Assembly (NCBI GenBank): GCA_028282195.1
Contig: JANQII010000132.1
Coordinates: forward strand, 1 to 40,328
Length of the DNA stretch: 40,328 nt
Origin: Prolixibacteraceae bacterium
Lineage (GTDB): Bacteria > Bacteroidota > Bacteroidia > Bacteroidales > Prolixibacteraceae
Reading direction: 5' to 3'
Under the pieces are notes generated by a model that saw nothing but the letters and a program-made list of their open reading frames with translations, ran no database searches and had not been told where the DNA came from. Positions 19,834-40,328 of this stretch are shown here, one piece after another. Made by a program: the position numbers and the translations under genes. Position 1 is the stretch's first letter, and each line of letters opens with the position of its first letter.

Positions 19834-19844
19834 ATCTTATCATC

Positions 19845-21299: not shown

Positions 21300-21308
21300 T
21301 AATATTAT

Positions 21309-21337: not shown

Positions 21338-21369
21338 GTTTTCAAACAGCCTTACCATTTTGAGATAAT

Positions 21370-22815: not shown

Positions 22816-22902
22816 GGAAACAACACTAAATTCCGGGCAGAAAAAATAATCTTTCAACTACTTTGGTTACATCGATGTTACTAACATTAAATAAATAGAG
22901 CA

Positions 22903-24375: not shown

Positions 24376-24378
24376 CCG

Positions 24379-25809
24379 ATGAAGACAAACGTAAAACCAA
24401 TTCACTTAAAAAAGAACATAATTTTAGTCGTTCTCTTTTCTCTTTTTGGTTTTTTAATATGTAACCTTGTAAAAGCTGAGCACTCAAAACCAAATATCAT
24501 CCTTATTAATATTGATGATTTGGGATGGCGGGATGTTGGTTTTATGGGCTCAAAATTTTATGAAACCCCTAATCTTGATGCACTGGCCGCCGGAGGAATG
24601 ATTTTTACAGATGCATATGCAGCAGCATCTAATTGTGCTCCAAGCAGAGCCTGCCTGATGAGTGGTCAATGGACGCCCAGGCACGGTATTTATACAGTTG
24701 GCAGCTCGGAAAGAGGGAAAAGTGAAACCCGGAAATTAATTCCTGTTAAAAATAATACGATATTACCTGACAGCCAGTATATATTGACTGAAGCATTGAA
24801 AGACGCTGGTTACACTACCTGCCATGCCGGGAAATGGCACTTGAACGAAGACCCAACAACGCAAGGCTTTGATGTAAATATTGGTGGTTGCCATGCCGGT
24901 AATCCCGGGAGTTATTATCCGCCTTACAAATTGGTTCCGCTTGAAGCTCCATCAGAAGATTATTACCTAACGGACCTGGTCATGGACAAAACGATCGATT
25001 TTCTGAAATCTACCGGCGAAAATCCATTCTTTCTTTACTATTCGCCTTATGCCGTACATACGCCAATCCATCCTGTAAAAAGCCTGTTGCCTAAATACAA
25101 AAATAAGCCAGAGTGGAAAGAGCAGAATAATGCAAAATATGCCACCATGGTTGAGAATCTGGATATCCAAATTGGACGAATGATTGAGTACCTGGAAAGC
25201 TCAGGTAAACTTAAAAATACCTTTATCCTGTTTATTTCTGATAATGGGGGCGTTTATAGAGTAACCAAACAACGACCTCTCAGGGCAGGAAAAGGTTCTT
25301 ATTATGAAGGAGGTATCCGTGAGCCCATGTTTGCTTATTGGGAAGGAAGAATAGCAGCTGGAAAAATGTCAGATGAACCTGTAAGTAACCTGGACTTTTA
25401 TCCAACCATATTGGAAGCCGCTGGAATTGAAAAACCAGAAAATAAGATTCTTGATGGTCAATCAATTTTGCCTGTTCTGACTCAAAAAGGTTCATTGGGT
25501 TTACGTCCGCTTTACTGGCATTTCCCTATTTACCTTGAAAGTGGTAACCGTGAATGTCAGGACTTGCTTTTTCGGACTCGTCCGGGATCTGCCATTCGTC
25601 TGGGAGATTGGAAACTCATTCAATATTTTGAAAATAATGATATTGAACTTTATAACCTGAGAGATGATATCAGTGAGAAAAATAATGTAGCTGTTTCAAA
25701 TCCGGAAAAGGTTGATCAGCTATTAAAACTTCTCACTGAATGGAGAATAGAAATCAATGCACCAATTCCAACTCAGTTAAATCCTGAATACATACCATTA
25801 TCAAAATAA
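24379..25809 (+). CDS. S1-family sulfatase, S1_16-like, CAPSR
   Basis: Secreted sulfatase with a long N-region signal peptide (about 1-34). The formylglycine motif CAPSR has its catalytic Cys at 86 and continues ACLMSG. Metal-binding NIDDLGW (about 49), the HAGKWHLN block (Lys and His present) and the C-terminal SDNGG segment are intact. The substrate-facing segment reads GFDVNIGGCHAGNPGSYYPPY, in which Cys171 is shared with the sulfatases at 27877 and 29347. These features suggest an S1_16-like enzyme, often active on galactose-type sulfates; this subfamily call is tentative. It starts 3 nt after the thioredoxin gene. Length 476 is standard. Confidence 0.92.
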   Translation: MKTNVKPIHLKKNIILVVLFSLFGFLICNLVKAEHSKPNIILINIDDLGWRDVGFMGSKFYETPNLDALAAGGMIFTDAYAAASNCAPSRACLMSGQWTPRHGIYTVGSSERGKSETRKLIPVKNNTILPDSQYILTEALKDAGYTTCHAGKWHLNEDPTTQGFDVNIGGCHAGNPGSYYPPYKLVPLEAPSEDYYLTDLVMDKTIDFLKSTGENPFFLYYSPYAVHTPIHPVKSLLPKYKNKPEWKEQNNAKYATMVENLDIQIGRMIEYLESSGKLKNTFILFISDNGGVYRVTKQRPLRAGKGSYYEGGIREPMFAYWEGRIAAGKMSDEPVSNLDFYPTILEAAGIEKPENKILDGQSILPVLTQKGSLGLRPLYWHFPIYLESGNRECQDLLFRTRPGSAIRLGDWKLIQYFENNDIELYNLRDDISEKNNVAVSNPEKVDQLLKLLTEWRIEINAPIPTQLNPEYIPLSK

Positions 25810-25841
25810 ACTCAACTAAACGAATAAAAATCCGAATATAT

Positions 25842-27869
25842 ATGAAGCAACTGTGCTGGATGATCCTATGCTTAATCTGTCTTTGTTCTTGTTCACTTAA
25901 GAAATTACCGGAGCAAAGTATTACGAATGGTAGCGCAACCGTTTTTACGGAGAATGATCAACTTATAATTTCAACGGGTAAGGTTGAACGAACCTATCAA
26001 CTTACTCCGTATGGATTAGTTACGAAATCATTTCGAAATATTAGTTCTGATACCGAATGGATAAAAGCAAATCCAAAGTTACTTTGTGATTGGTCAATTG
26101 ATGGATATTCGCAAGCTAATTTGGTTTCCCTGAATTCTTTTATTTCTGATGATGAAAAATTTACGGATTCACATATCTGCGTTGAAGCTGAGTTTGAGTA
26201 CCCGAAAAACCATCTGATGTTAAAATACATTGTTTGGGCTTACCCGGGGGCGGAAGGTTTAAGGACACAAATCCAGCTAAAAGCATTGTCCGGGTTTGAT
26301 CCCAAAAGGGAACATTTCATAGAAGATATTACCGAAACCTTGAATTTTAAAATTGGATTTCCTGAAAAAACAGCGTTTGGCTATATGCAGGGGATAAAAA
26401 CCAATATGGATAAAGATATCCTCACTGAAGAAAAATTATCACCTGGTACAAAAGTTGTAGATTGGGCCAGTGGGCTGGTAATGCCTTCGGGCAACCAGGG
26501 GCTTATCCTGGTCAAGGAATCCAATAAATCAACCAGTTTGCCGGAAAAATGGGACGTTGCTACAGGTTCATTCCTGCTAAATGGGCAAACAGTGCAGGTA
26601 ACAGGTGCGGGTATGTACCCTGAAAACCTGAAGGAAGATGAATACCTTTCATGCTGGGCAAATTGGGTAATCCTATATGAAGGTGATGCTGACGATGCCC
26701 TTCTTTCATTGAAAAAGTTTGACAGGAGGAGGTACCCGGTCCATCCCGACAGGGATATTTTTATGATGGCAAATACCTGGGGGACAGAGGATATGCGCCC
26801 GGGATGCCTTTACGCTGCCCGTGAAGAAAATGTGTTGAAAGAACTGGAAAGTGTCGCTGATTTGGGTATAGATATTCTTCAGATTGATGATGGCTGGCAA
26901 ACTGCTGAATGGCTGCCCGCAAAACACTCAAGGGATCATGAACACAAAGATGTTATTGGGGATTATGATGTGTATCCTGATGGGTGGGGCAAGGTAAAGG
27001 CAAAAGCGAAAGAACTAAATGTAAAATTAGGCTTATGGGCTGCCTGGACTGCCCCTCTTGATAAGCTAAAATGGAATTATGACAAAGGGGGCTTTAGCGC
27101 GTTTAAACTGGATTTTGCCAACCTGAATACCATAGAAAGAAGAGATGGGTTGATGAGCAAAGCCCGTGAACTAATTAAATACTCCGGTTATAATACTTGC
27201 GTGAACTGGGATGTTACAGAGATCCCGCCAAGGGCAGGATATTTTTATGGGCGCGAATACGGAAACATTTACCTCGAAAACAGGAAGGTTACTACTGCAC
27301 GTCCTCCGGTTCAGTATGTCCCTTATAAAGTACTCAGGGATGCCTGGCTACTTTCAAAGTATGTAAACCTCAATAAATTTCAGCTTACTGTCCAAAACAT
27401 TGATATGACCAAAGACCCGACAAAAACGGATGCTCAACTGCATAATCATCCATATGTTGTCGCAATCGCTTTGATGTCAAGCCCTATTTTTTTTCAGGAA
27501 ACCCATTATTATTCAGATAAAGCAAGGAAGCAGATAAAACCACTTTTGTCAGTTTATAAAAAGCACAGGGAAGAAATGTATGCCGGCTATGTGTTCCCGA
27601 TTGGAAATGTACCTGACAATAAAAGCTGGACCGGTTTTCAAAACCATAATCCAGAGACTGACTCAGGCTATTTGACCATTTTCAGGGAATTGAACAATGG
27701 TGAACCAACCAAAGAGTTCTCGCTAAAATTTCTGGGGAATAAAATGATCAGGCTGACTGACCTGACTACGAACCTGGATGAGGTTTTAATCCTGAAAAAT
27801 GGAGTAGCAGGTTTTACGATTACAAGCCCGGCAGGTTTTAAATATTACAAATATGAAGTATTAGATTGA
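25842..27869 (+). CDS. GH36-like (clan GH-D) lipoprotein glycosidase
   Basis: Probable alpha-galactosidase-type retaining hydrolase. A type II signal peptide (MKQLCWMILCLICLCSC) is followed by a beta-sandwich N-terminal domain (about 25-300) and a TIM barrel (about 305-590). The strand-1 motif IDDGWQT (348-354) and the nucleophile-type motif FKLDFAN (Asp424) are typical of GH36/GH27. The acid/base is less clear: the expected Asp is not in the usual SDxTD context. The segment YGNIYLENRK, about 55 residues after Asp424, offers Glu479, and NWDVTE offers other candidates. The family is a distant one and the sugar specificity is uncertain. It lies 32 nt after the preceding sulfatase and is followed by another sulfatase with almost no gap. 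Confidence 0.75.
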   Translation: MKQLCWMILCLICLCSCSLKKLPEQSITNGSATVFTENDQLIISTGKVERTYQLTPYGLVTKSFRNISSDTEWIKANPKLLCDWSIDGYSQANLVSLNSFISDDEKFTDSHICVEAEFEYPKNHLMLKYIVWAYPGAEGLRTQIQLKALSGFDPKREHFIEDITETLNFKIGFPEKTAFGYMQGIKTNMDKDILTEEKLSPGTKVVDWASGLVMPSGNQGLILVKESNKSTSLPEKWDVATGSFLLNGQTVQVTGAGMYPENLKEDEYLSCWANWVILYEGDADDALLSLKKFDRRRYPVHPDRDIFMMANTWGTEDMRPGCLYAAREENVLKELESVADLGIDILQIDDGWQTAEWLPAKHSRDHEHKDVIGDYDVYPDGWGKVKAKAKELNVKLGLWAAWTAPLDKLKWNYDKGGFSAFKLDFANLNTIERRDGLMSKARELIKYSGYNTCVNWDVTEIPPRAGYFYGREYGNIYLENRKVTTARPPVQYVPYKVLRDAWLLSKYVNLNKFQLTVQNIDMTKDPTKTDAQLHNHPYVVAIALMSSPIFFQETHYYSDKARKQIKPLLSVYKKHREEMYAGYVFPIGNVPDNKSWTGFQNHNPETDSGYLTIFRELNNGEPTKEFSLKFLGNKMIRLTDLTTNLDEVLILKNGVAGFTITSPAGFKYYKYEVLD

Positions 27870-27876
27870 TTTGATT

Positions 27877-29331
27877 ATGAAAGGACTACTTGTTGTTTCG
27901 TTTTTAGTTTTGTTCATGGGTTTAAACGCTCAGAAAAATCAGAAACCAAATATTGTTTTCTTTTTAATTGATGACCTGGGCTGGAGTGATTTGGGCTGCT
28001 ATGGTAGTAAGTTTTATGAAACACCGAATATTGATAAGCTGGCCAATGAAGGAATACGTTTTACTTCCGCCTATATGATGCCAACCTGTTCTCCGTCCAG
28101 GGCCTCATTAATGACAGGGGAATATCCTCCGCGGACTGGTATTTATACTGTTGATGCCTATGCCGGGACGCCTTTAAAAATGCAAAAAGTAAAAGGGATC
28201 AGGTCAAAAAAATTCCTCTCCCAAAATGATGTTACAATAGCCGAGGTCTTGAAAAATGAAGGATATGTAAATGGCCACTTTGGAAAATGGCATTTGGGCA
28301 ATACACCTGAAACCTACCCCCTCGCACAGGGTTTTGATGTAAACGTTGCAGGTTGTGAAACAGGGGCACCCCGGAGTTTTTTTAGTCCATACCTGAATGT
28401 GAAAAATATTGAAACACAAAATGATGGCAAATACCTTCCTGAGGTGTTAACAGACGGAGCCTGCCGGTTTATTGAGGAGAATAAAAACAGTCCGTTTTTT
28501 CTTTATTTCCCGTTTTACCTGGTGCATGTCCCCCTCCATGCAAAAAAAGAATGGGCAGCTAAGTATGCAGCTAAAGAACCTGATGGCGGACAAAGTATTC
28601 CTGCCTATGGGGCAATGGTCAGTTACATGGATTTTTGTGTAGGTCGCGTACTAAAAAAGATTGAAGAACTGGGTTTGGATGAAAATACAATTGTGATCTT
28701 TACCTCTGATAATGGTGGACAAATCGTGGCAACTTCCAATTCCCCGTTAAAAGGCCAAAAAGGGAACCTGCATGAAGGGGGCATACGTGTCCCGTTAATC
28801 GTAAAGTGGCCTGGGAAAGTCAAAAAAGCTACTCGAAATGATACCCCCGTAACTGTTGTTGATTTCTATCCAACATTAGCCGGAATGAGTGATGCAAATC
28901 TTCCCAAAGACAAACAAATTGACGGTGAAAGTATTGTGCCCCTGCTAACGGGAAAAGGAAGGCTAAAACGTGATGCCATCTTTTGGCATTTGACATCTTA
29001 TAACGGAAACGGGCGCAGTAATTCATTGCTGTGGCAACCTCCCGGCGGAGCTATTCGAAAAGGTGACTGGAAGCTAATTGAAAACTTTGAAGATGGCTCT
29101 TTGCAGTTGTATAATTTAAAAGGGGATATTGGGGAAAAAGAAAATTTAGCGGACAAATATCCTGAAAAGACAAACGAGCTTTTAAACAGGCTTAAAGCCT
29201 GGCAGGAAAAAACCAAAGCCCCTATCCCCGGTGAGATCAATCCGCTGTTTGAAGAAAGTTCAATAGAGTGGGTTAACCAACAAAATATTAGAAACATAAG
29301 TGAAGTTGAGAGACTTACTCTAATTAAATAA
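27877..29331 (+). CDS. S1-family sulfatase, S1_16-like, CSPSR
   Basis: Secreted sulfatase. The start is taken at the ATG at 27877, 7 nt after the upstream stop; a TTG at 27871 is in frame. Signal peptide about 1-20 (MKGLLVVSFLVLFMGLNAQ). The formylglycine motif CSPSR has its catalytic Cys at 71. The DDLGW metal segment, GHFGKWHLGN and SDNGGQ are all intact. It carries the GFDVNVAGCETGAPRSFFS segment (Cys160) shared with its neighbours, so it is a likely tandem paralogue of the enzymes at 24379 and 29347. It lies in a tight run of genes, probably one operon. Confidence 0.93.
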   Translation: MKGLLVVSFLVLFMGLNAQKNQKPNIVFFLIDDLGWSDLGCYGSKFYETPNIDKLANEGIRFTSAYMMPTCSPSRASLMTGEYPPRTGIYTVDAYAGTPLKMQKVKGIRSKKFLSQNDVTIAEVLKNEGYVNGHFGKWHLGNTPETYPLAQGFDVNVAGCETGAPRSFFSPYLNVKNIETQNDGKYLPEVLTDGACRFIEENKNSPFFLYFPFYLVHVPLHAKKEWAAKYAAKEPDGGQSIPAYGAMVSYMDFCVGRVLKKIEELGLDENTIVIFTSDNGGQIVATSNSPLKGQKGNLHEGGIRVPLIVKWPGKVKKATRNDTPVTVVDFYPTLAGMSDANLPKDKQIDGESIVPLLTGKGRLKRDAIFWHLTSYNGNGRSNSLLWQPPGGAIRKGDWKLIENFEDGSLQLYNLKGDIGEKENLADKYPEKTNELLNRLKAWQEKTKAPIPGEINPLFEESSIEWVNQQNIRNISEVERLTLIK

Positions 29332-29346
29332 CGATTTGAAAGAGCT

Positions 29347-30750
29347 ATGAACTCAAGATACTTTAAAGTAAATATCTTATTACTTTTTGTGATTATCCCT
29401 TTTCTTCTTTCTGCTGAAATAAGAAACGAAAAACCCAATATCATTTTCATTTTGGTTGATGACTTGGGATATTCCGATGTGGGGTACATGAATCAAAAGC
29501 CCAAAGTCCAAACGCCCAATATTGATAAACTGGCAAAAAGCGGGATGGTTTTTACCAATGCATATGCCGCGTCTCCTGTATGTTCGCCCACGAGGGCCAG
29601 TATCATGACAGGAAAATACCCTGCAACTTTAAGGCTCACCTGTCATATCCCTGGTATTGGCATGCAACCGTACCTTGACAAAATGAACAGGGACAAGAAG
29701 CTAATGGAAGCGGAGTTTATTGATCATCTCCCTCATGAAGAATTAACTTTTGCCGAAGTTTTAAAAGCAAACGGATACAAAACAGCTTTTATTGGAAAGT
29801 GGCATTTGGCAGGCGAAGGTTCCCAAAAAACAAATGATGGTGTCGTTAATGCGATGTTTCATCCCGATCAGCATGGGTTTGATATTAATATGGGTGGTTG
29901 TGCATATGGACAGCCCGCCAGTTATTTCTCGCCATATAAAAATGCTACCATTAAGGATGGAGATGAAAATGAATATTTAACAGATAGATTGGGGGATGAG
30001 GCTTGTAATTTTATTGAAAAAAACAGAAATAAGCCTTTTTTACTTTGTTTGTGGACATACACAGTGCATACGCCATTAAGAGCTCCTAAAGATGTTATCG
30101 ATAGATACAATGGAAATAAGTATCTGGCTATGATACACAAGTCGGATGAAAATGTAGGAAAGGTGCTGGAAAAAGTTAAGGAACTGGAGTTAAATAAGAA
30201 CACCTTAATTATTTTATATTCTGATAATGGAGGATTGTTTGAAAATCCTCCCTTGAATAACCGCAAAGGCTCTTTGTATGAAGGAGGAATTCGTGTCCCT
30301 TTGATTATGAGCTATCCGGGAAAAATACAAGCAGGATCGAAGTGTGATATTCCCGTTACCAGCCCTGATTTTTCCCCGACGATCTTAGAAACTGCAGGGC
30401 TTTCATCGGAAGGATATAAAAACCTGGAAGGGCAGAATCTTTGGCCTTTACTTTCTCAAAAAGAAGGCTTTAAGGAACGTGCAATTTATTGGCATTTCCC
30501 TCACCGCAGGAATACAGATAAAGCCATGGGGGCAGCACTGCGGGAAGGAAAATGGAAATTGATCTGGGAGTACGAATCAGATAAACTAAGCTTATTCAAC
30601 CTGAAAGAAGATATTGGTGAAACAAAAAATTTGGCCAGTTTAAACCTGGAAGAATTAAAAGACTTACATAAAAAACTAAAAGTATGGCTGGTAAAAACCA
30701 ATGCAGCCATGCCCCAGGCAAATCCGAATTATAAAGAATCTATAAATTAA
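29347..30750 (+). CDS. S1-family sulfatase, S1_16-like, CSPTR
   Basis: Secreted sulfatase, signal peptide about 1-22. The formylglycine motif CSPTR has its catalytic Cys at 79, followed by ASIMTGKYPAT. Metal segment VDDLGYSDVGY and the IGKWHLAGEG block are present, as is SDNGGL. It carries the shared GFDINMGGCAYGQPASYFSP segment (Cys185). Between the CSPTR motif and this segment it holds about 20 extra residues compared with its two paralogues (spacing 106 versus 85 and 89), around MQPYLDKMNRDKKLMEAEF, which probably lies at the substrate pocket. It starts 15 nt after the preceding sulfatase. Confidence 0.93.
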   Translation: MNSRYFKVNILLLFVIIPFLLSAEIRNEKPNIIFILVDDLGYSDVGYMNQKPKVQTPNIDKLAKSGMVFTNAYAASPVCSPTRASIMTGKYPATLRLTCHIPGIGMQPYLDKMNRDKKLMEAEFIDHLPHEELTFAEVLKANGYKTAFIGKWHLAGEGSQKTNDGVVNAMFHPDQHGFDINMGGCAYGQPASYFSPYKNATIKDGDENEYLTDRLGDEACNFIEKNRNKPFLLCLWTYTVHTPLRAPKDVIDRYNGNKYLAMIHKSDENVGKVLEKVKELELNKNTLIILYSDNGGLFENPPLNNRKGSLYEGGIRVPLIMSYPGKIQAGSKCDIPVTSPDFSPTILETAGLSSEGYKNLEGQNLWPLLSQKEGFKERAIYWHFPHRRNTDKAMGAALREGKWKLIWEYESDKLSLFNLKEDIGETKNLASLNLEELKDLHKKLKVWLVKTNAAMPQANPNYKESIN

Positions 30751-30761
30751 CCTGATACATC

Positions 30762-32363
30762 ATGAAACAATCCATCGTATTTATTTTGCTTTTGATTATT
30801 GCTTATGCCTGTAAAACAGAACCTCAGGCTGTTGTTAACCTGGTTCCGGCAGAACCTGCCAAATCGGCCAATTACTGGTGTACCTGGTATGCCCAAAACT
30901 ATTGGGTACAACGTGGAGGGGAAATAAGCGATTTAAATAAAATCACCAATCCTGCTGCCCGCGAGGAACTAAGTTATAACCACCTTTACAACGAAAAAGA
31001 AGGGTGGATAACCAATTATTTGCCGAAAGGACGGAGCGATTGGTATTTTCTGATCGATCATGGCTGGCAGACCAGGGATGCTTCAGAGCGAACCATTCCG
31101 GGTGCTAAAGCTTTCTTTTCTTTGCAAATTGACCCCCGTGATTTTCCTGAATATGGAGATGCAGAGCCTGAAGAAGCGCTGCGTCTTTTTAATGAAGAAG
31201 TAATCAGTCATGGTTGGCGGGGGCTTGGTATCTGGACCCGTGGAACAATCGATTCTGTTGCAGCACACACCATGGTGGAATGGTCGAAATATGCCGGAAT
31301 TGAATATTGGAAAATTGATGGGGGAGGTATTGAAAACTTCTGGAGTTTTCAAATTAAAGAGAAGATTTTCCCGGAATTAAAATTGGAGTATGTAACACCT
31401 GCCGGTAACCTGAACCCGGATTGGGATGTGGCCGGAAAAGCTGAATATCCTTCAGTTTATGATTTTGGAGGCCGAAAGCAAACAGATATGTTGAGGGTGC
31501 TTCAAAATTCGGATGCATTCCGTACGTATGATGCTTCGCCAATTTTGATGACAGTAACTACATTACGACGTACCCATGATATTTTGAAGCAAACGCAAAA
31601 CCAACCCAAATACCGTTCCATATTGAATATTCAGGATGATTGCAATGTTGCGGCAGGTTTAGGTTGCCTGGTGGCAAGCAAGCGCCATCCAAACTACATG
31701 GAGCGCACTTTGGAAGGGAAAGATCTTCATCATCAGCTTTCCGGGAAAAGACATATGCAGGGACGTATAAATGAAGTTGAACGCTTTGGAAGATGGTCAC
31801 GGATTGCACCGGCATTTCCTGCAGGAGAGGGATCTTATTTGGCTTCAGATACTGAACTTGTGGACTATTTCGAATTCACAAAACACGATACATGGAATAA
31901 AGCCACTTATGGCAAAAATGTTTACCAGAGTGCTCCTTCCATTATGGCCCGTAACATGCCCCTTCCCCAGGTTGAAATTGACGGTGATGCACCTTATGTG
32001 ATGGCATCAACTTATCCCAATGGCCCTGTTTGTGTTGCTACTGAAGGCCGTGTTAAACCGGAAGATCAATGGTACCACCCAAGGGCAAAAGTTACAATTC
32101 AGGTAAAAGATGCAACACAGCCAATTGGTGTTTTTGGTCATTACGAAAAACTGGTTATTGAGTTCAGAGAACCAATTGACGCAGTTAAAAATATATGGGC
32201 ACAGGATTTATTGGCAGAACAGGCTTCAGACATTAAGAACAAAGTAAAAATAGACGGAAGTAAACTTTTTATTCCCGGTGAAGTAATTGATCAGATTGGA
32301 ACATCAGCAGGGGATAAAGACGATATTTCTGTTCCGGGTATGGTCATGAAGTTGGAATTTTAA
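30762..32363 (+). CDS. Unclassified lipoprotein, possible divergent clan GH-D hydrolase
   Basis: I do not recognise this family. It has a probable type II signal peptide (lipobox-like AYAC), a short N-terminal part with NYWCTWYAQNYW, and then features like a TIM barrel of clan GH-D: WYFLIDHGWQT (94-104), resembling the GH36 strand-1 motif DDGWQ, and YWKIDGGG (Asp186), resembling the K-x-D nucleophile motif. A C-terminal beta region (about 420-533, including VTIQVKDATQ) may be a sandwich domain. Total length is 533. It lies between two sulfatases in the same tight cluster, so glycan processing is likely. What argues for a hydrolase is the two motifs in the right order and its neighbours. What argues against is the His in place of the second Asp at strand 1 and no obvious acid/base residue. 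Confidence 0.55.
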   Translation: MKQSIVFILLLIIAYACKTEPQAVVNLVPAEPAKSANYWCTWYAQNYWVQRGGEISDLNKITNPAAREELSYNHLYNEKEGWITNYLPKGRSDWYFLIDHGWQTRDASERTIPGAKAFFSLQIDPRDFPEYGDAEPEEALRLFNEEVISHGWRGLGIWTRGTIDSVAAHTMVEWSKYAGIEYWKIDGGGIENFWSFQIKEKIFPELKLEYVTPAGNLNPDWDVAGKAEYPSVYDFGGRKQTDMLRVLQNSDAFRTYDASPILMTVTTLRRTHDILKQTQNQPKYRSILNIQDDCNVAAGLGCLVASKRHPNYMERTLEGKDLHHQLSGKRHMQGRINEVERFGRWSRIAPAFPAGEGSYLASDTELVDYFEFTKHDTWNKATYGKNVYQSAPSIMARNMPLPQVEIDGDAPYVMASTYPNGPVCVATEGRVKPEDQWYHPRAKVTIQVKDATQPIGVFGHYEKLVIEFREPIDAVKNIWAQDLLAEQASDIKNKVKIDGSKLFIPGEVIDQIGTSAGDKDDISVPGMVMKLEF

Positions 32364-32376
32364 AATAGGAGAGCAT

Positions 32377-33762
32377 ATGATAAAAAAAATCTCACTGATT
32401 AACTTTTTACTACTGGTCTTTTTATTGACAGCAAGCAGTCAAAATATGGAGAGGCCAAATATCATTTTTATCCTGGCTGATGATTTAGGCTATGGGGATA
32501 TAGGTTCTTTTGGACAAAAAAAGATAAAAACCCCGGCACTTGACAATATGGCTGAAGAAGGTTTGGTGTTCACTCAACATTATGCCGGAGGGCCGGTTTG
32601 TGGTCCATCGCGTGCATGCTTAATGACAGGCCTGCATCAGGGGCATGGCTATATTAAAGGAAACCCGGGGGAAATGGATGAACGGGAAACACTAAGAAAA
32701 GAAGACGTAACCATTGCTGAACTACTTCAACATTCCGGATATAAAACAGCCTGCATTGGAAAATGGGGACTCGGTAAGCTGGGTAGTACAGGATATCCGC
32801 TTGATAAGGGATTTGATTATTTTGTGGGATACGATACGCATGTAGCGGCTCACAATTATTATCCAAAAAGGCTTTGCGAAAATGATGGTTTCCTTGAGTT
32901 ACAACAAGGAACATATAGTCATGATGTATTTACACGAGAAGCTCTGGATTTTCTTGAAAAGGATCATCAGGAACCATTCTTTTTGTACCTGGCCTATACG
33001 ATACCCCATGGCCCATACAATCCGCCTGATATACTACCTTATGAAAATGAAGATTGGCCGGATAAAGCAAAAAAATATGCCGCTATGGTTACACGGATGG
33101 ACCGTGACATTGGCAGCATACTACAACTTCTTGTTGATAAAGGAATGGATGGGAATACCCTTGTAATTTTTACAAGTGATAACGGACCGCAATCAGTTTA
33201 TCAGGGTGGGGAAAATGAACTTACTGGTTTTTTTGACAGCAATGGTTGTTTACGTGGGATAAAACGGGATGTGCTTGAAGGAGGGATTAGGGTCCCGTAT
33301 ATAGCATGGTGGCCTGGCCGGATAAAAGCAGGAATATGTGAAGAAGCAACAGCTTTTCAGGATTTTATGCCTACGGCTTGTGAATTGGCAGGTATAAAAC
33401 CACCTGCTAATATTAATGGCCTTTCCATGATCCCTTTGTTTTTTGGGCAGGATGAAAATTTTCCCGGGCATGAAATGATGTATTGGGAATTTATTCGCAT
33501 GGGGGGCAAAACCCAGGGAAGCCGTCAGGGGGCACTGGATGTAAAGAACAATATAAAAGCAGTAAGGTATGGGACTAAAAGTGATATTGAACTTTATTTT
33601 CTGAATGATGATATTTCTGAAGAAAACAACTTGTCCGAAAACTACCAGGGAATTTCATTAAAAATGAAAACTTATATGGATACTGTTAGAACTGAGAGCA
33701 AACTTTGGCCTATACCGGAAAAGGGATGGGTTGTACCTCAAATACCAACTATAGGTCATTAA
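32377..33762 (+). CDS. S1-family sulfatase, arylsulfatase A-like, CGPSR
   Basis: Secreted sulfatase, signal peptide about 1-21. The formylglycine motif CGPSR has its catalytic Cys at 75, followed by ACLMTGLHQGHGYIKGN. The usual GKWHLG block reads GKWGLGKLG (His to Gly), a variant found in the CGPSR branch of S1 enzymes together with the GFDYFVGYDTHVAAHNYYP segment seen here. The SDNGP segment carries the C-terminal metal residues. It differs from the S1_16-like trio and so probably acts on a different position or sugar; I cannot assign the subfamily. A good Shine-Dalgarno, AGGAGAG, lies just before the ATG, uncommon in this region. It ends the plus-strand cluster, 16 bp from the convergent gene at 33779. 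Confidence 0.92.
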   Translation: MIKKISLINFLLLVFLLTASSQNMERPNIIFILADDLGYGDIGSFGQKKIKTPALDNMAEEGLVFTQHYAGGPVCGPSRACLMTGLHQGHGYIKGNPGEMDERETLRKEDVTIAELLQHSGYKTACIGKWGLGKLGSTGYPLDKGFDYFVGYDTHVAAHNYYPKRLCENDGFLELQQGTYSHDVFTREALDFLEKDHQEPFFLYLAYTIPHGPYNPPDILPYENEDWPDKAKKYAAMVTRMDRDIGSILQLLVDKGMDGNTLVIFTSDNGPQSVYQGGENELTGFFDSNGCLRGIKRDVLEGGIRVPYIAWWPGRIKAGICEEATAFQDFMPTACELAGIKPPANINGLSMIPLFFGQDENFPGHEMMYWEFIRMGGKTQGSRQGALDVKNNIKAVRYGTKSDIELYFLNDDISEENNLSENYQGISLKMKTYMDTVRTESKLWPIPEKGWVVPQIPTIGH

Positions 33763-33778
33763 AAAATTAAGGTAAACT

Positions 33779-35020
33779 TTATTCAAAGTCTTCGATAAAT
33801 ACCGAATTGTCTTGCAAGTCTTTTAGGTAGATGTAATCAAGTGATCCGCTACCATGAAACATGACGGTGGTTCCAAGAATTTCACCTATTGATTGGCTGT
33901 ATACATTGTCGAATACAACAGAGTCTGCAATAGAAACGCTTACATTTTTATTGTTATTCCTGATCTCAATTTCAGACCATTGCTGGAGGTTTACGGTAAA
34001 GCAACTCAAGTCCGTTACTGAACCTGACGTTTTTCTTTCACCCAGGACATATTCGCTATAGTTGCTGCACCCTTCCCCTACAAACTTGATTAATATTTTT
34101 CCTTTCGTTCCCTGAACTGAAAAATATGCGGAGAAGCAACGGATAGCTGACCAGAAAGAATCATTTTTAAATCGCGATTGAAGAACAAAAGAATCACCCG
34201 GTTTATTTGTTTTTTGGTAATTGTCGATTCTTACAACTATAATCTTAGTCGAATCTATTCCAAGTGAAACAATATTTTTTCTTGAGCCATGAAAAATTCC
34301 ATCTTTCGTATTATCCTGAAGTGGGATTGGGTAATAACGATCAATTAATTCATTTTCAAAATAATGGCATAAGGCTTGCCATCCCCTGGTTGGAATAAAT
34401 ACTTTAACGGGTTCAGTTAATACCTCTTTTCTTGTTTGTAAGTCAGCAGAAAAATAACCGGGATACCCATAAAAATGAGAAACCGTTTTATCAAATCCTG
34501 CACTATTTATTAAATCTGAACCATCTCCAAAATTTAAGAAAACACTATCCTTACTTTCAGGAACATCGTAAATAAAATATGCAGAAGCAGGGCCACTACC
34601 TTCAACTTTTATCAGTTCAAGTTTGCTATTCTTTAGTACATTGGTTTTACTATCGTTGTTGAAAAACCACATCAAAATAACAATAGATAAAACCGTGAAG
34701 ATCGTTAGCCAAAGCCACCTGTTTTTCAAAATCCCGGGTGATCCTGGAGTATATCCGGAATATATAATAAGTGCTTTTAATGTACTTTCCTGTGGGGTAT
34801 AAGCATCACTTATTTTTACTTTTCCAAAAATTCGTTTAAGGGTTGCAGGACTTATTAAAATTTTAGCTTTCTGGTTGATCTCAAAACTTAAATCTTCAAA
34901 ATCCTTATTGCGCCATTTCCCGGATGAACCTCTTCCAAACCTGATTTCAGTTTGTTTGATAATTTTTTTGATATTTCCTTCTTGTATTTGCAAAATTCTC
35001 AAAAAATAGTGTCGATGCAA
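33779..35020 (-). CDS. Membrane HTH-TM-PKD-LamG protein, possible one-component regulator
   Basis: Predicted single-span inner-membrane protein with a cytoplasmic DNA-binding-like head. Residues about 17-90 match a Bacteroidota N-terminal module with helix-turn-helix character (DFEDLSFEINQK, ISPATLKRIFGKVK, then STLKALIIYSGY). One TM helix spans about 102-120. The periplasmic part has a PKD-like domain (about 145-205: FLNFGDGSD ... HFYGYPGYF) and a LamG-like beta-sandwich (about 215-410). The topology resembles ToxR-like one-component regulators that sense outside and bind DNA inside. It sits convergent to the sulfatase operon and divergent from the FAD oxidoreductase operon, so that operon is a natural target. 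Start: no ATG is in frame near the N-terminus. TTG at 35020 is used here; an ATC at 34970-34972 after AGAAGGA better fits the family's usual N-terminus. Function is inferred. Confidence 0.7.
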   Translation of the reverse strand: MHRHYFLRILQIQEGNIKKIIKQTEIRFGRGSSGKWRNKDFEDLSFEINQKAKILISPATLKRIFGKVKISDAYTPQESTLKALIIYSGYTPGSPGILKNRWLWLTIFTVLSIVILMWFFNNDSKTNVLKNSKLELIKVEGSGPASAYFIYDVPESKDSVFLNFGDGSDLINSAGFDKTVSHFYGYPGYFSADLQTRKEVLTEPVKVFIPTRGWQALCHYFENELIDRYYPIPLQDNTKDGIFHGSRKNIVSLGIDSTKIIVVRIDNYQKTNKPGDSFVLQSRFKNDSFWSAIRCFSAYFSVQGTKGKILIKFVGEGCSNYSEYVLGERKTSGSVTDLSCFTVNLQQWSEIEIRNNNKNVSVSIADSVVFDNVYSQSIGEILGTTVMFHGSGSLDYIYLKDLQDNSVFIEDFE

Positions 35021-35177
35021 TTATTTGTAAAGTAGCGCCTTAGCTTGTTCATTGTTTTGAAAAGCTAATGAATAAGCGAATATGAAAATATTTTTTCAGC
35101 TTTCCATAAATTTGATTTACTAATTTGATTCGTATTGAAAGTTATAACTAACATAAATCAACTAAACTAATAATAAC
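35021..35177. promoter_or_regulatory. Divergent promoter region of regulator and redox operon
   Basis: A 157-bp AT-rich spacer between two divergent genes, which must contain both promoters. TTTG words occur near 35111 and 35123, but no full TTTG/TAnnTTTG pair with proper spacing could be assigned. No clear long palindrome was seen. Confidence 0.4.
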
Positions 35178-37043
35178 ATGGTTCGGAGTTTTGTAATAAT
35201 TTATCTGATAGCTAGTAGTTTAATTTGTATTGCCAAAAAGCACACAACGATTTTAGTTGAGGCTGAAAGTTTCAAAAATAAAGGGGGTTGGGTTGTTGAC
35301 CAACAATTTATGGATGAAATGGGTTCACCTTATTTAATGGCGCATGGTTTAGGAGTAACGGTTAAAGATGCTTCTACTATAGTTAAGTTTCCAAAGGCAG
35401 GTAGATATTACTTGTTTGTAAGAACAAAAAACTGGGCTGCCCGTTGGTCTGATAAAGATGCACCAGGTAAGTTTCAGGTTAAAATTGATGAAAAGCTTAT
35501 TGATCGGGTTTTTGGGACAAAGCAAAAAGAATGGAGCTGGATAAATGGAGGAGCAGTTGATATCAGTAAAAAAGAAACATCAGTTGCTTTGCATGATTTG
35601 ACAGGCTTTAATGGTAGGTGCGATGCTTTAATTTTCACTACTGATCCAAACTTTGAGCCAGTTAATGACCTGGTTTCTCTTTCAGTGTTCAGACAAAAAA
35701 TGCCTGGGATATCCAACAAACCCAAATCGGCAGGGAAATATGACTTTGTGGTTGTAGGAGGAGGAATGGGAGGAATCTGTTCCGCAATTTCTGCTGCAAG
35801 GCTTGGTGTAAAAGTTGCATTAATCCAAAACCGGCCTGTTCTTGGTGGGAATAATAGTTCTGAAGTCCGTGTGCATCTTGGTGCCCGAATCAGGCAGGAA
35901 CCTTGGCCTAATTTGGGAAATCTTGTTAATGAAATTGGGCCGGAAAGAGGAGGAAATGCCCAGCCAAAAGATTATTACGAGGATAATAAAAAGTTAAAAG
36001 CTGTTTTAGCCGAAAAGAATATCAGTCTTTTCCTGAATTGCCATGCCAATAAGGTGATTGTTGAGAATGGGAAAATTAAATCAGTAATTGCCCAGCACAT
36101 AGAAACAGGTGAGAGATTGGAGTTTAAAGCGTCTTTATTTGCTGATTGTACTGGCGATGGAACGATTGGAGCTTTAGCTGGTGCCGGGTTCATGACAGGC
36201 CGGGAAAGTAAACGTGTTTTTGGGGAATCAACAGCACCTGAGAACGCAGATAGTTTGACCATGGGGGCTTCAGTACAGTGGTTCTCGCAGAAACAAGACA
36301 GGCCAGCTCTTTTTCCTGATATTAAATGGGGAATTGAACTGGATGACGAAAAATCACATGCCATTACCCGGGGTGATTGGGATTGGGAAACCGGTATGGG
36401 AATAGATATGACCAAAGATTTTGAGCGTGTTCGTGATTATGGAATGTTGGTCGTTTTTTCAAACTGGTCGTATGTGAAAAACCATTCAAAAGTGAAAGAT
36501 AAATTTACAAATGAGCAGTTGCAGTGGGTTGCTTTTGTTGCTGGGAAACGGGAATCACGTCGTTTGGTTGGGGACTATGTTTTGGTAGAGCAGGATTTAA
36601 CCGAGCGAAGGATATACCCTGATGGGACAGCCCCAACAACCTGGACAATCGATTTGCATTACCCACATCCGGAGAACTCAAAAATGTTCCCTGATGCACC
36701 TTTCAGGTCTATAGCAAAGCATATTACAATTTATCCTTACCCGATACCCTTCCGCTGCTTGTATTCCAAAAATGTTGATAATCTCATGATGGCTGGTCGT
36801 AATATCAGTGTTTCGCATGTTGCTTTGGGAACTGTAAGGCTTATGAGAACTATTGGAATGATGGGAGAAGTTTTGGGTATGGCTGCCTCCATTTGTAAAG
36901 AAGAAAAAATATTACCACGGGGTGTTTATGAAAATCATTTTTCAAAAATGGAAAAGCTAATGGCTGAAGGAGTTGGAAATCCGGAGCTTCAAAATACACA
37001 AAAATACAATTTGGGAGGAACATTGCATAAGAACAATGATTAG
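35178..37043 (+). CDS. Secreted FAD-dependent oxidoreductase with CBM-like N-terminal domain
   Basis: Flavoprotein of the FAD_oxidored (PF12831) type. A signal peptide (about 1-19) is followed by a beta-sandwich (about 25-155: TTILVEAESF start, then FPKAGRYYLFVRTKNW), resembling CBM6/35-like modules. A Rossmann fold then starts at 185 with FVVVGGGMGG (GGGMGG at 194-199). The family-typical LGGNNSSEVRVHLGA follows shortly after, and a C-terminal MMAGRNISVSHVALGTVRLM closes the FAD site. It is expected outside the cytoplasm, which needs an electron acceptor there; the next gene encodes a candidate flavinylated protein. The substrate is unknown; a sugar or glycan is inferred from the CBM-like domain and the neighbouring glycan locus. 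The ATG at 35178 is the first gene of a four-gene run. Confidence 0.87.
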   Translation: MVRSFVIIYLIASSLICIAKKHTTILVEAESFKNKGGWVVDQQFMDEMGSPYLMAHGLGVTVKDASTIVKFPKAGRYYLFVRTKNWAARWSDKDAPGKFQVKIDEKLIDRVFGTKQKEWSWINGGAVDISKKETSVALHDLTGFNGRCDALIFTTDPNFEPVNDLVSLSVFRQKMPGISNKPKSAGKYDFVVVGGGMGGICSAISAARLGVKVALIQNRPVLGGNNSSEVRVHLGARIRQEPWPNLGNLVNEIGPERGGNAQPKDYYEDNKKLKAVLAEKNISLFLNCHANKVIVENGKIKSVIAQHIETGERLEFKASLFADCTGDGTIGALAGAGFMTGRESKRVFGESTAPENADSLTMGASVQWFSQKQDRPALFPDIKWGIELDDEKSHAITRGDWDWETGMGIDMTKDFERVRDYGMLVVFSNWSYVKNHSKVKDKFTNEQLQWVAFVAGKRESRRLVGDYVLVEQDLTERRIYPDGTAPTTWTIDLHYPHPENSKMFPDAPFRSIAKHITIYPYPIPFRCLYSKNVDNLMMAGRNISVSHVALGTVRLMRTIGMMGEVLGMAASICKEEKILPRGVYENHFSKMEKLMAEGVGNPELQNTQKYNLGGTLHKNND

Positions 37044-37055
37044 GTGTTGAATAGG

Positions 37056-38177
37056 ATGAAATTGGGGTTTAAAATAGTAATTAAGAATACAGGGGTAAGT
37101 TTGTTGCTCCTGTTATTTATATTACCTGTCACATCTTTTATCCCCAATCAATTTGTTAAGCCAGGTTTTAGCTTTTTAACACAAGATTCTGTTCAGGTAG
37201 ATGTTTATAATTGTTTCGGTCATGATTCAGTGTTAAATGGATACAAAGCATTGGTTTTTACTCCTATCTGCGAAGAAGAAGATTGTTATGCAGTCGATCT
37301 GGTTTTTTATTGGGATGTGCTGGGCAATTTCGAAAAATTTGAATTGGTTCCCGGCAAGCCTCTTACAAAAAAGGAGCATGAACCATTTACTAAAGAAGAC
37401 TATCAAAAGCTTCAATTTTTACTAAAGAAGAAACATGTTTCATTTTCAGAGTTAAAGAAAGAAGATTTAATCCAGGTTTCTGAAGATTCTATAGATGGCT
37501 ATACAGGTGCAACCATTTCTGCTGTAAAAGATGAAGTAATTGAGGGGGCGGTTTATAGCTGTTATACGCTATGGTACATCGCAAACGGAGTGGTAAAAGA
37601 TAGCATTCATAAAAACACTGCAAGACAACTTGATAAAAAACTTGTTCAAAAGCTTGTCTTTTCTGACGATGTCGAGGCTAATTATTTTTTAATTAATCAC
37701 TTTCGTACAAAAGACTTTAGAAGCTACTCTGATGAAGTATTAACCATGCTTAGGAAGAATAGTGGCTATTTTTTTAAAATAGCCATAGAGAAGTTTCCCG
37801 TTGAATTAATTTCAAGCAGAAACTTTCAGGATTCACTTTCTTCTTTTTTCCAGGATCAGGATTATTTTACAAAACTAAGCTTTCTAAAAAGCCTGGATAA
37901 TCAGCTCAAATCAACAAAACTATCCGGTTCAATTCTGGAAAGTATTCATTCAGGTAACTTTTCCCGGATTGAATTAGTTGTCGAATTATTTTTTAAATCT
38001 GCTGAGTATATTGATTACAGTATGTATAAAGCATTGCTGAATGTTTTATCGGAAAAAGAGTTAAAACTAAAAAAAGAACATTATAAAATGATTCGGACCT
38101 TAGGGCAGACAAATGATCAATTTAAGAAAGAATTTAAACGTTTTAAACGGACCTATCTAAATATGTCGCAAACATGA
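37056..38177 (+). CDS. Putative covalently flavinylated FMN-binding protein
   Basis: Probable extracytoplasmic electron carrier. The start is taken at the ATG at 37056; a GTG at 37044, directly after the upstream stop, is also in frame. A hydrophobic signal/anchor (about 10-28) precedes a domain with the motif DGYTGATIS. That fits the D-x-x-[ST]-G-A-T-x-[ST] signature on which ApbE-type flavin transferases attach FMN to Thr (here Thr153). The segment after it (AVYSCYTLWYIANG) fits an FMN_bind-like fold. The C-terminal 200 residues are helical, lysine-rich and unrecognised. The CEEEDCY pair of cysteines near residue 70 is notable. Being directly downstream of the FAD oxidoreductase suggests electron transfer between the two. 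No ApbE gene lies in the window. Overall the match rests on one motif and is moderate. Confidence 0.6.
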   Translation: MKLGFKIVIKNTGVSLLLLLFILPVTSFIPNQFVKPGFSFLTQDSVQVDVYNCFGHDSVLNGYKALVFTPICEEEDCYAVDLVFYWDVLGNFEKFELVPGKPLTKKEHEPFTKEDYQKLQFLLKKKHVSFSELKKEDLIQVSEDSIDGYTGATISAVKDEVIEGAVYSCYTLWYIANGVVKDSIHKNTARQLDKKLVQKLVFSDDVEANYFLINHFRTKDFRSYSDEVLTMLRKNSGYFFKIAIEKFPVELISSRNFQDSLSSFFQDQDYFTKLSFLKSLDNQLKSTKLSGSILESIHSGNFSRIELVVELFFKSAEYIDYSMYKALLNVLSEKELKLKKEHYKMIRTLGQTNDQFKKEFKRFKRTYLNMSQT

Positions 38178-38488
38178 TAAAAAATCAAGTATTGAAAATT
38201 ACAAGCTTAGTTGTATTGATTTTAGTTTTTGGATGCCAGACAAAAAAAGCAGAAAAGAAAAGTTCAATAACTGATTTTTCAAAACTAATCCAAAAAGTGC
38301 CCGGAACTTCAATATTGGAAGAAGAGGGTTATTTCGTTTGGGGTGGCTCTGTTGTAAAAGTACATCGGCTTGAACGTTTTCAAATCTTGCTTGAAAACGA
38401 TCAACCCATAATGATGTATTGTGCATGTAGAAAAGGAGAATCTTTCGAGGATGAGACATTTAATATGCATATTCCTTTAAAGCATTAA
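38174..38488 (+). pseudogene. Remnant of a beta-propeller glycosidase-like lipoprotein, internally deleted
   Basis: A 104-residue open frame whose ATG overlaps the preceding stop (ATGA). The N-terminus is a lipoprotein signal (lipobox VFGC). The rest looks like the two ends of a longer five-bladed beta-propeller (GH43-like) glycosidase joined together: EGYFVWGGSVVK matches the typical first-blade start, and directly after it RLERFQILLENDQPIMMYCA and FNMHIPLK match the typical C-terminal end (consensus like ERPQLLFENGKP ... FNxxIPL). Full-length members have about 350-380 residues, so about 250 codons would be missing between roughly 38355 and 38370. The frame is intact, so it may still be translated, but catalytic blades are gone. 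This reading is from motif memory and should be checked. Confidence 0.5.
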
Positions 38489-38525
38489 TCGCAAAGGCGA
38501 GTTATTAACCCATCAAAAAAATAGA

Positions 38526-39977
38526 ATGCTTACTTTTTTTATATCAATAGCAGTTTTAGTTTCAGCTTATTTTATTTACGGGAGTTTTGTTGAAAAAAAG
38601 TTTGGTGCTGATCCAAATAGAGAGACTCCGGCGTATTCTAAAAATGATGGCGTTGATTTTGTGCCATTGAAACCCGGGAAAATATTTCTGATACAGTTTC
38701 TGAACATTGCCGGTTTAGGACCAATATTCGGTGCAATAGCCGGAGCTCTTTGGGGACCGGTTGCTTTTATCTGGATTGTAGTTGGATGCATTTTTATGGG
38801 TGCTGTGCATGACTACTTCTCAGGAATGTTATCCATTCGTCACGGAGGGGCCAGTATCCCCGAAGTTGTAGGTAAATATCTTGGGATTCCGGCACAATAC
38901 TTTATGCGTTTATTTGCAGTAGTGTTGCTTATTCTTGTTGGTGCTGTTTTTATGAAAGGACCTGCCACAATCCTAAATGGTATCACTGGGATAAATGTTA
39001 CAACTCTGATCTTGATTATTTTTCTCTATTATTTAATGGCAACTATGATACCGGTCGACAAGCTGATCGGGAAAGTGTATCCTGCATTTGGGATATCCTT
39101 GTTGATTATGGCTGTTGGAATTTTTGGAGTGTTGGTTTTTGGTGGTTATCAAATTCCAGACCTGATTCCTGAAACTGTGACGAATATGCACTACGAAACA
39201 GAAAATTATCCGATATTTCCATTACTTTTTATAACAATAGCATGCGGGGCAATTTCGGGCTTTCATAGTACACAATCTCCTTTAATGGCCAGATGTTTAC
39301 CTAATGAAGCAATGGGTAAAAAGATATTTTTTGGAGCGATGATAACTGAAGGTATTGTGGCAATCATCTGGGCAGCTGCTGCTATGGCATTTTTTGGAGG
39401 TGTAAAAGAATTAAATGAAGTTACATTGTCAGGAAAAAATGCTGCATGGGTGGTCAATGAGATTTGTAATACGATGTTAGGTAAAATTGGAGGATTGCTT
39501 GCCCTGATTGGGGTTGTTGCTGCTCCAATTACTTCAGGCGATACTGCGTTTCGAAGTGCACGTTTGACGATTGCCGATGCGTTTAATTTTCCTCAAGACA
39601 AATTGAAAAAACGATTCTTAATCACCATCCCATTGTTTATCGCAGGGCTTCTGTTAACCCAAATCAATTTTGATATTATATGGCGTTATTTCGGTTGGGC
39701 TAACCAAACGTTGGCTACAATTGTTTTGTGGACTGCAGCCGTTTATATGGTAAAACAAAGAAAACCAAGCTGGTTCATAACCTGGCCTTCTTGTTTTATG
39801 ACCGCTGTGGTTACAACTTATATTCTGGTTGCTCCTGAAGGGTTCAATATTGATCATCAATATGGTTTGTATGCTGGTTGTACAATTGCTTTTGTTGGAT
39901 GGGTTATTCTATTACGATACAAACACATTACAAGTAGAAAAAAAGAAAACGTAAAAGTAGTTGCTCAATCAAATTAG
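38526..39977 (+). CDS. cstA: CstA-family carbon starvation transporter
   Basis: Polytopic inner-membrane protein of the CstA family, proton- or ion-coupled importers linked to peptide or pyruvate uptake in enteric bacteria. Typical segments are PGKIFLIQFLNIAGLGPIFG (about 50-69), GPVAFIWIVVGCIFMGAVHDY and FHSTQSPLMARCL (about 245-257), with many hydrophobic spans up to residue 470. At 483 residues it is the short Bacteroidota form (the E. coli protein has about 700). It ends the redox operon 37 bp after the remnant gene. A role in taking up a small product of the oxidoreductase pathway is possible but inferred. A perfect hairpin follows at 39992-40046. Confidence 0.92.
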   Translation: MLTFFISIAVLVSAYFIYGSFVEKKFGADPNRETPAYSKNDGVDFVPLKPGKIFLIQFLNIAGLGPIFGAIAGALWGPVAFIWIVVGCIFMGAVHDYFSGMLSIRHGGASIPEVVGKYLGIPAQYFMRLFAVVLLILVGAVFMKGPATILNGITGINVTTLILIIFLYYLMATMIPVDKLIGKVYPAFGISLLIMAVGIFGVLVFGGYQIPDLIPETVTNMHYETENYPIFPLLFITIACGAISGFHSTQSPLMARCLPNEAMGKKIFFGAMITEGIVAIIWAAAAMAFFGGVKELNEVTLSGKNAAWVVNEICNTMLGKIGGLLALIGVVAAPITSGDTAFRSARLTIADAFNFPQDKLKKRFLITIPLFIAGLLLTQINFDIIWRYFGWANQTLATIVLWTAAVYMVKQRKPSWFITWPSCFMTAVVTTYILVAPEGFNIDHQYGLYAGCTIAFVGWVILLRYKHITSRKKENVKVVAQSN

Positions 39978-39991
39978 TTTGTTCTTATAAA

Positions 39992-40046
39992 CAATGTGAA
40001 TCAAGGATTTCCCTGAATATTCAGCTTCAACCCTTGATTCACATTG
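39992..40046 (+). terminator. Hairpin downstream of cstA
   Basis: 39992-40006 and 40032-40046 are perfect 15-bp inverted copies (CAATGTGAATCAAGG arm) around a 25-nt loop, which itself contains a GAATATTC palindrome. It starts 14 nt after the cstA stop. It has no clear U-tract, so it may be a processing or transcript-end structure rather than a classic intrinsic terminator. Confidence 0.6.
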
Positions 40047-40086
40047 GTAATAAATTATTGAATGTCCGCAATGAATCATAACCCGA

Positions 40087-40252
40087 ACGTCATGAGGCTG
40101 TCCAAAAAGTTAACTTAACCGCTAAGTATTTTAAGGAACCGCAAAGACACAAAGAATTAAGCTTTTCTATATCAGAATCTTAGTGTTCTTTGCGTAATCT
40201 TATGCGTTCTTCGCGGTTTGAATTTTATTCTTTTTGGACAGCCTCATGACGT
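40087..40252. repeat. MITE-like element with perfect 23-bp terminal inverted repeats
   Basis: 40087-40109 and 40230-40252 are perfect 23-bp inverted copies; the arm contains ATGAGGCTGTCCAAAAAG. The 120-bp interior has no gene but contains a second, looser inverted pair built of CGCAAAGACACAAAG-like words (about 40138-40156 versus 40188-40220). The outer arm resembles ends of Bacteroidota insertion sequences, which would make this a non-autonomous derivative. No clear target-site duplication was seen. Confidence 0.7.
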
Positions 40253-40328
40253 AAAAATAAGCGATAGGGAATAAAACGGATATTCAAATAAATTATGTCT
40301 GCTTCCATTTGTCAATTTAAGTGAATAT

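Follow-up and report, generated by a model that had tools for sequence, protein, structure and literature searches.

A stretch of 40,328 nucleotides from a Prolixibacteraceae bacterium (GenBank assembly GCA_028282195.1, contig JANQII010000132.1; this whole stretch is called the window below) encodes an exported flavin adenine dinucleotide (FAD)-dependent oxidoreductase and, directly downstream, a protein with a motif for the attachment of flavin mononucleotide (FMN), here named FMNL. Do these two proteins work together, in which direction would the electrons flow between them, and on what substrate? An earlier note on this DNA, made from the letters alone, proposed that FMNL is covalently flavinylated and supplies the extracytoplasmic acceptor that an exported FAD enzyme needs, in a redox-assisted attack on a glycan linked to sulfatases. 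From the analysis described here, it is on balance probable that the FAD enzyme and FMNL together make up an extracytoplasmic redox unit. In this unit the FAD enzyme, a member of PF12831, would oxidise a glycan-derived compound, and ApbE would put FMN on Thr153 of FMNL. Electrons would then pass from the FAD enzyme to FMNL and on towards the respiratory chain, and the HEAT/ARM-like solenoid of FMNL could serve as a docking surface.

Recurrence of the gene pair

Recurrent pairing of the two genes in other genomes had been set beforehand as a test of this proposal, and such pairing was found. The single window protein, used as a query over genome contigs, retrieved no relative; an alignment used as the query retrieved 169. 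The best 80 of these 169 named-genome relatives define a set of 80 loci, which, as the best matches to the window, are biased to its clade. In this set, a FAD_oxidored gene is immediately adjacent on the same strand for 80 of the 83 FMNL genes. Counted per locus, the pair is present in 77/80, and it occurs in 21 of the 22 named genera. The three unpaired FMNL genes lie at a contig start (L073), next to a small antisense open reading frame (ORF) called between the two genes (L128), and in another clade (L130). Both gene orders are seen, FMNL-FAD 62 times and FAD-FMNL 18 times.

An even draw was also made over 395 Bacteroidota genomes. Five candidates were scored per genome, so the yield is at least eight genomes with FMNL, including the window's. 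All eight FMNL genes of the seven other genomes stand beside an FAD gene, one of them with apbE between. One of these partners is divergent (L171, 1056 amino acids, E 2e-34) and was not listed by the genome search at E 1e-30. A further set, the first, covers 149 genomes (the window's included), 30 of which have FMNL; it holds 33 loci from other genomes with 34 FMNL genes. The pairing, motif and genus counts keep duplicates, and some contigs are in both locus sets (e.g., L029 and L077); near-duplicates were removed before two of the alignments and before the trees were made. On the FMNL tree, made from ORFs of at least 250 amino acids and two forms of 175 amino acids, the label "FAD within two genes" takes 7 changes vs. 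14.2 in shuffles. A physical and electronic partnership of the FAD enzyme and FMNL is considered very probable.

FMNL and its probable flavinylation

The motif DGYTGATIS, which the earlier note had read as an FMN attachment site, was found where it was claimed, with residue 153, counted from the ATG at 37056, as the acceptor Thr. Its first seven residues match exactly the strict ApbE flavinylation motif D-x-x-[ST]-G-A-[ST], as defined in a passage of PMC12052999. The strict motif is present in 65 of the 118 FMNL genes counted vs. none of 1037 other genes called in the same loci with a length of 150 amino acids or more. Across 122 FMNL-family sequences (ORFs longer than 230 amino acids), the D of the motif is kept in 122/122, and the acceptor is T in 121 and S in one.

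The predicted structure divides FMNL into a flavinylation domain (approximately residues 36–190) and a solenoid (approximately residues 192–373), the C-terminal half showing a helical-repeat (HEAT/ARM) fold. Cys72 and Cys77, near the turn that joins model strands 60–73 and 76–86, are invariant in an alignment of 56 sequences (the window protein and 55 of 58 listed sequences) and kept in 121 of the 122 sequences of the larger set, with one gap; they are a possible disulphide or redox pair. In FMNL, a divergent, putative flavinylation domain bearing these two conserved Cys residues is joined to the HEAT/ARM-like solenoid of the model. A hydrophobic N-terminus was scored, by a simple measure, in 117 of 121 FMNL ORFs. 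The commonest weak match of the domain is PF04205 (FMN_bind); with an E limit of 1, it was obtained for 9 of the 34 domain sequences, the best E being 0.0038. The best PDB match by sequence is 8p2b, a covalent-FMN domain; the match is weak (E 0.016, 0.094 and 0.39) and spans about 40 residues, in register over the motif. A PDB structure search with the whole FMNL model returned a list filled by solenoid matches only, which excludes nothing on the FMN domain. KH_PARP14 and other weak matches of FMNL were taken as chance. Two FMNL-like proteins of 175 amino acids (L056:9132-9659 and L057:9172-9699) are without the Cys pair and the solenoid and keep D-x-x-S-G-A-S; the domain may here be reduced or be preserved in an older form.

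The strongest functional evidence for flavinylation of FMNL is that ApbE is encoded close to it. A recurrent neighbour of about 340 amino acids was identified as ApbE (PF02424; E 7e-71 in L134, 1.8e-77 in L172 and 1.6e-78 in L165). In the 80-locus set, 31 of the 83 FMNL genes have it no more than three genes away, in 29 loci, of which 27 are from Cytophagales and two from Chitinophagales, and the commonest order with it is SusC-SusD-FMNL-FAD-ApbE. ApbE was met in 2/8 loci of the even draw and in none of the 20 loci that hold an FAD gene but no FMNL. The window's genome has one ApbE, with a lipoprotein-like start, on another contig; the window locus itself has none. Judged from these sequences, FMNL is very probably flavinylated. 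The motif, the recurrent pairing and the nearby ApbE support the flavinylated partner of the earlier note.

The FAD enzyme, its direction and its substrate

The exported FAD oxidoreductase was confirmed as a member of PF12831 (E 3.2e-70; residues 189–584, profile positions 1–408 of 416; 237.9 bits vs. a gathering score of 27), and its N-terminus is hydrophobic, as in a signal region. The same simple score picks out a hydrophobic N-terminus in 129 of the 153 FAD ORFs; an RR pattern occurs in 21, several of which resemble Tat signals. The domain that had been called similar to a carbohydrate-binding module is a plausible one: residues 24–155 or so are beta-rich in the predicted structure (predicted local distance difference test score 82.9), but the family match of this part is weak and sub-threshold (Golvesin_C, E 0.059). 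A fumarate-reductase-like assignment to PF00890 was rejected since the match, at 34 bits (cut-off 20.4), covers only residues 189–225 and profile positions 1–37 of 414 rather than the whole domain. The GMC oxidoreductase model is absent from the seven Pfam matches of the protein at E 0.01.

The direction of electron flow was approached through the oxidases of the host genomes. In 36 chosen genomes, a heme-copper oxidase was found in 19 of the 20 with the pair vs. 10 of the 16 with an FAD gene and no FMNL match (Fisher p 0.03, kinship uncorrected). Four pair-bearing genomes (G002, G033, G081 and G085) and other FAD-bearing genomes, e.g., G008, G010 and G083, lie outside this comparison. The difference is a hint that FMNL may tie the FAD enzyme to aerobic respiration; such a link, if real, would make the FAD enzyme a dehydrogenase. 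It is reasonably probable that the enzyme works in this direction.

Genes of the SusC/SusD type occur in 55 of the 80 loci. Other recurrent neighbours are GH2, weakly GH88-like and weakly melibiase/GH97-like proteins, and CstA or sodium-symporter transporters; FAD genes without FMNL likewise sit among SusC/D, glycosidase or transporter-type genes (e.g., L152). The substrate is likely to be derived from a glycan. The special tie to sulfatases that had been claimed is weak, as these were counted in only 17 of the 80 loci; the profile used was built on a single cluster from this set, and distant sulfatases may escape it. There is no specific indication of a sulfated substrate.

Evidence against the redox unit and alternative explanations

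A number of results weigh against a two-protein redox unit with a flavinylated FMNL, and they are gathered here. Pairing was less constant in the 33-locus set, where an FAD gene is adjacent on the same strand for 16 of 34 FMNL genes; the other 18 comprise contig ends, one case with CstA between and, for the most part, members of other clades. Fusions of FAD, FMNL and ApbE were found in none of the loci examined, and the window operon encodes no membrane electron acceptor. The FAD gene also occurs by itself: among FAD genes of the 149 genomes that share 51% identity or more with that of the window, FMNL is near 12 and absent from 20. This count comprises 25 single-stretch FAD genes (12 with FMNL and 13 without) and seven split stretches, none of which is on a contig with an FMNL match. 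Two of the 12 have other genes between FAD and FMNL, and one of the 13 lies at a contig end. No FMNL was found in the 20 fetched FAD-bearing stretches, which were picked for having no FMNL match. On the FAD tree, the pairing label takes 11 changes vs. 25.4 in shuffles; taken together with the close relatives that are without FMNL, this indicates that FMNL was probably gained or lost repeatedly alongside the FAD enzyme. FMNL is therefore not essential, and elsewhere the enzyme would use another acceptor, or none; the view that an exported FAD enzyme of this family needs this acceptor is not supported in that form. Some of the genomes concerned are also without a heme-copper oxidase. Within two genes of the FMNL-less FAD genes, a CxxCH motif and a flavinylation-like motif were each seen once in 20 loci, unconvincingly.

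These solitary genes, 20 of the 32 close relatives and some of them in genomes without any FMNL match, would suit an FAD enzyme that is redox-neutral, i.e., one that oxidises, eliminates or epimerises, and re-reduces on one substrate, with FMNL priming or repairing it or serving another partner. That explanation is improbable, as the FAD gene is the most constant neighbour of FMNL in the window's wider clade (80/83) and ApbE often joins them.

The second group of adverse results concerns the FMN domain. A match to PF04205 had been proposed as a check: at E 0.01 none was obtained with the whole window protein, and a trimmed piece scored 13.0 bits, short of the gathering score of 22. PF04205 is not among the 25 listed of the 34 Pfam families that match 30 full-length FMNL members. 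NCBIfam gave no FMNL family at E 0.01, only three chance matches, each in one of 56 members. When FMNL was compared by hhalign with 26 canonical FMN_bind domains, the alignment extended over only 11 columns, at the motif. Within the motif, 32 of 122 sequences have A or V in place of the [ST] that precedes G-A, and 20 have another residue for the G. Such variation and the missed PF04205 cut-off are what would be expected if FMNL were not flavinylated; the motif would then be a loop with a structural role, and FMNL would act as scaffold to a secreted enzyme. This is very unlikely, given the invariant D and T/S of the motif, an ApbE gene at most three genes away in 29 of 80 loci, and the weak matches to PF04205 and 8p2b; moreover, the canonical FMN_bind domains of relatives vary at the G too (DAITAATIS, DAITASTIT).

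The third group concerns direction. The best Foldseek matches of the FAD model include reductases as well as dehydrogenases: the top rows include SDHA, FrdA and flavocytochrome c3, with urocanate reductase at rank 9. In one genome with the pair (G030, 86% complete), no heme-copper oxidase was matched. The electrons might run in reverse, from FMNL to the FAD enzyme, which would then act extracytoplasmically as a reductase of an organic acceptor or of a glycan-derived group. The reductases among the Foldseek matches speak for this, as do passages of PMC8238504 in which FMN domains are thought to supply electrons to fumarate-reductase-like enzymes, and an aerobic lifestyle is compatible with a reductase. 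Reverse flow is nevertheless unlikely, in view of the oxidase in nearly all pair-bearing genomes. Six of the seven oxidase-less genomes among the 36 have an FAD gene and no FMNL match, and many loci look catabolic, with SusC/D and glycosidases.

The window locus and other settings of FMNL

The gene order and coordinates of the locus are as the earlier note gave them (Table 1). FMNL begins 12 bases past the stop of the FAD gene (counted from the ATG at 37056), and the CstA gene begins 37 bases past the ORF of 104 amino acids. This close spacing suggests that the FAD gene, FMNL, the short ORF and CstA form one operon. A promoter and terminator scan of 33500-40328 was uninformative, with 19 promoter-like sites vs. 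22.4 expected. The pair does lie beside a sulfatase cluster, but an opposite-strand gene stands between them, so the two do not share an operon.

Table 1. Features of the window and the evidence for them (positions counted from its first letter).
Feature	Position	Strand	Evidence or remark
Exported FAD-dependent oxidoreductase, 621 amino acids	35178-37043	+	PF12831, alignment of 25, structure model
FMNL, predicted divergent flavinylation domain and HEAT/ARM-like solenoid	37056-38177	+	ATG at 37056; GTG at 37044 a possible alternative start
Flavinylation motif DGYTGAT	37494-37514	+	Acceptor Thr153 codon 37512-37514; DGYTGATIS at 37494-37520
Conserved Cys72 and Cys77 (CEEEDC)	37269-37286	+	Alignments and model strands
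Glycosidase remnant, 104 amino acids	38174-38488	+	4-base overlap with FMNL stop
CstA-family transporter, final gene of probable operon	38526-39977	+	PF02554, E 1.1e-57
Divergent neighbour, 413 amino acids	33779-35020	-	Homologues next to FAD gene in loci L026 and L027
Polysaccharide-utilisation cluster adjacent to pair	16474-33762	+	Pfam matches
SusC-type TonB-dependent receptor	start 16474	+	Member of polysaccharide-utilisation cluster
SusD	start 19845	+	Member of polysaccharide-utilisation cluster
Five Pfam sulfatases	starts 21370, 24379, 27871, 29347, 32377	+	In polysaccharide-utilisation cluster
Thioredoxin-like protein	22903-24375	+	Redoxin and Thioredoxin_8 matches; in sulfatase cluster
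Weakly melibiase-like gene	start 25842	+	In polysaccharide-utilisation cluster

The glycosidase remnant and the CstA transporter of the earlier note both stand. The short ORF is a glycosidase remnant with both ends preserved: these match both ends of one open frame of 366 amino acids in a relative, where the matched parts share one frame and some 770 bases separate them, so the middle of the glycosidase is missing and the frame kept. A TSP1_CFP_C match of this ORF (E 0.007, below the cut-off) was rejected, as the two-ended match explains it, and a match to a phage record was uninformative (60% coverage, 36% identity). CstA lies within three genes of 9/34 and 6/83 FMNL genes in the two locus sets. 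The opposite-strand neighbour of 413 amino acids has no Pfam family at E 0.01; its family (cluster 18) is present in five loci, the window counted, and is possibly a membrane-anchored regulator.

FMNL was also met in other company. A clade without FAD (L031, L032, L035 and L130) adjoins a gene of 446 amino acids, an MFS transporter in L032, where FMNL also has a gene for a 3-keto-disaccharide hydrolase (PF06439) and one for NIF3 nearby; this clade suggests a second redox use of FMNL. In L036 and L040, FMNL stands beside an AcrB-type efflux pump, an HlyD-type protein and a DPPIV-type peptidase, with no redox enzyme adjacent (neighbours assigned by Pfam in L036 and by similar gene sizes in L040). 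Shorter FMNL forms adjoin an imelysin gene in L048 (the neighbour in L053 is of equal size) and a di-haem oxidoreductase gene (DHOR) in L049; these are possibly an iron-related redox locus.

Significance and comparison with known systems

Surveys that rely on Pfam FMN_bind for extracytosolic flavin carriers would miss FMNL. Among the loci examined, 21 named genera of Bacteroidota have the pair, often with SusC/D; this predicts a respiration-linked redox step in polysaccharide breakdown, and gives part of the large PF12831 group of "FAD-dependent oxidoreductases" a testable function. Since ApbE is encoded nearby in many relatives, reconstitution should be straightforward. The locus points to a little-explored extracytoplasmic electron transfer in glycan breakdown. 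Tentatively, and at somewhat less than even odds, it may represent a widespread, undescribed oxidative arm of Bacteroidota glycan use, in which glycan-derived sugars are oxidised by exported PF12831 enzymes and an ApbE-loaded, HEAT-fused covalent-FMN carrier brings the electrons to the respiratory chain, where other sugar dehydrogenases use cytochromes.

Sugar oxidation of this kind has a precedent in LacABC, in which LacA, a GMC-type enzyme, is paired with a cytochrome c. A 2024 paper in Nature reportedly deals with 3-keto glycan breakdown. The earlier note took attack of this kind on a glycan linked to sulfatases to be new; redox-assisted attack on glycosides as such is not, since a passage of PMC9007349 already describes the LacABC lactose 3-dehydrogenase, with a DUF1080 hydrolase, as periplasmic sugar oxidation within glycoside use. 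The step proposed here would be similar, but the window FAD protein belongs to PF12831 and shows no GMC model. DUF1080 (PF06439) was met once among the representative neighbours that the Pfam scans covered, near an FMNL without FAD (L032).

The FMN domain itself resembles 8p2b ("FMN4 domain 1"), its best PDB match with the motif in register, and differs from it in the HEAT part, which 8p2b is without; this structure presumably belongs with a study of multi-flavinylated FMN domains. Most of the 26 canonical FMN_bind domains taken from relatives (in the window's genome, RnfG) have DAITAATIS or DAITASTIT at the motif, and no membrane complex is encoded at the window locus. In Maribacter forsetii, an FAD-dependent oxidoreductase gene lies beside a SusC/D pair, for which the relevant passage of PMC11345257 names no flavin partner.

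The closest known systems are the flavinylated fumarate-reductase-like enzymes, in which PF00890 is combined with FMN_bind. Passages of PMC8238504 describe such enzymes, among them the urocanate reductase UrdA and Listeria FrdA; the FMN domain is part of the FAD enzyme's own chain or is encoded no more than two genes away, in 189 gene clusters of 171 genomes, and those relatives act as reductases. In its main text, polysaccharide, SusC, carbohydrate, sulfatase, FAD_oxidored, Bacteroidetes and Bacteroidota are not mentioned. Searches of the open-access literature found no paper that joins an FMN-binding protein, an FAD-dependent oxidoreductase, SusC and a sulfatase, none that joins an FMN-binding domain, polysaccharide utilization and ApbE, none that joins flavinylation, a polysaccharide, Bacteroidetes and an oxidoreductase, and none that joins ApbE and SusD. 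The principle of pairing an exported FAD enzyme with an FMN domain that ApbE flavinylates is thus already known; the window's enzyme has a related fold and would follow the same principle. The window differs in that its PF12831 enzyme carries an additional beta-rich part at the N-terminus, and in that its FMN domain is encoded as a separate protein outside Pfam FMN_bind. As far as the open-access literature shows, three things are new: PF12831 in a pair of this kind, an FMN protein that is fused to a HEAT/ARM-like solenoid and named by neither Pfam nor NCBIfam, and the frequent tie to SusC/D loci with ApbE close by.

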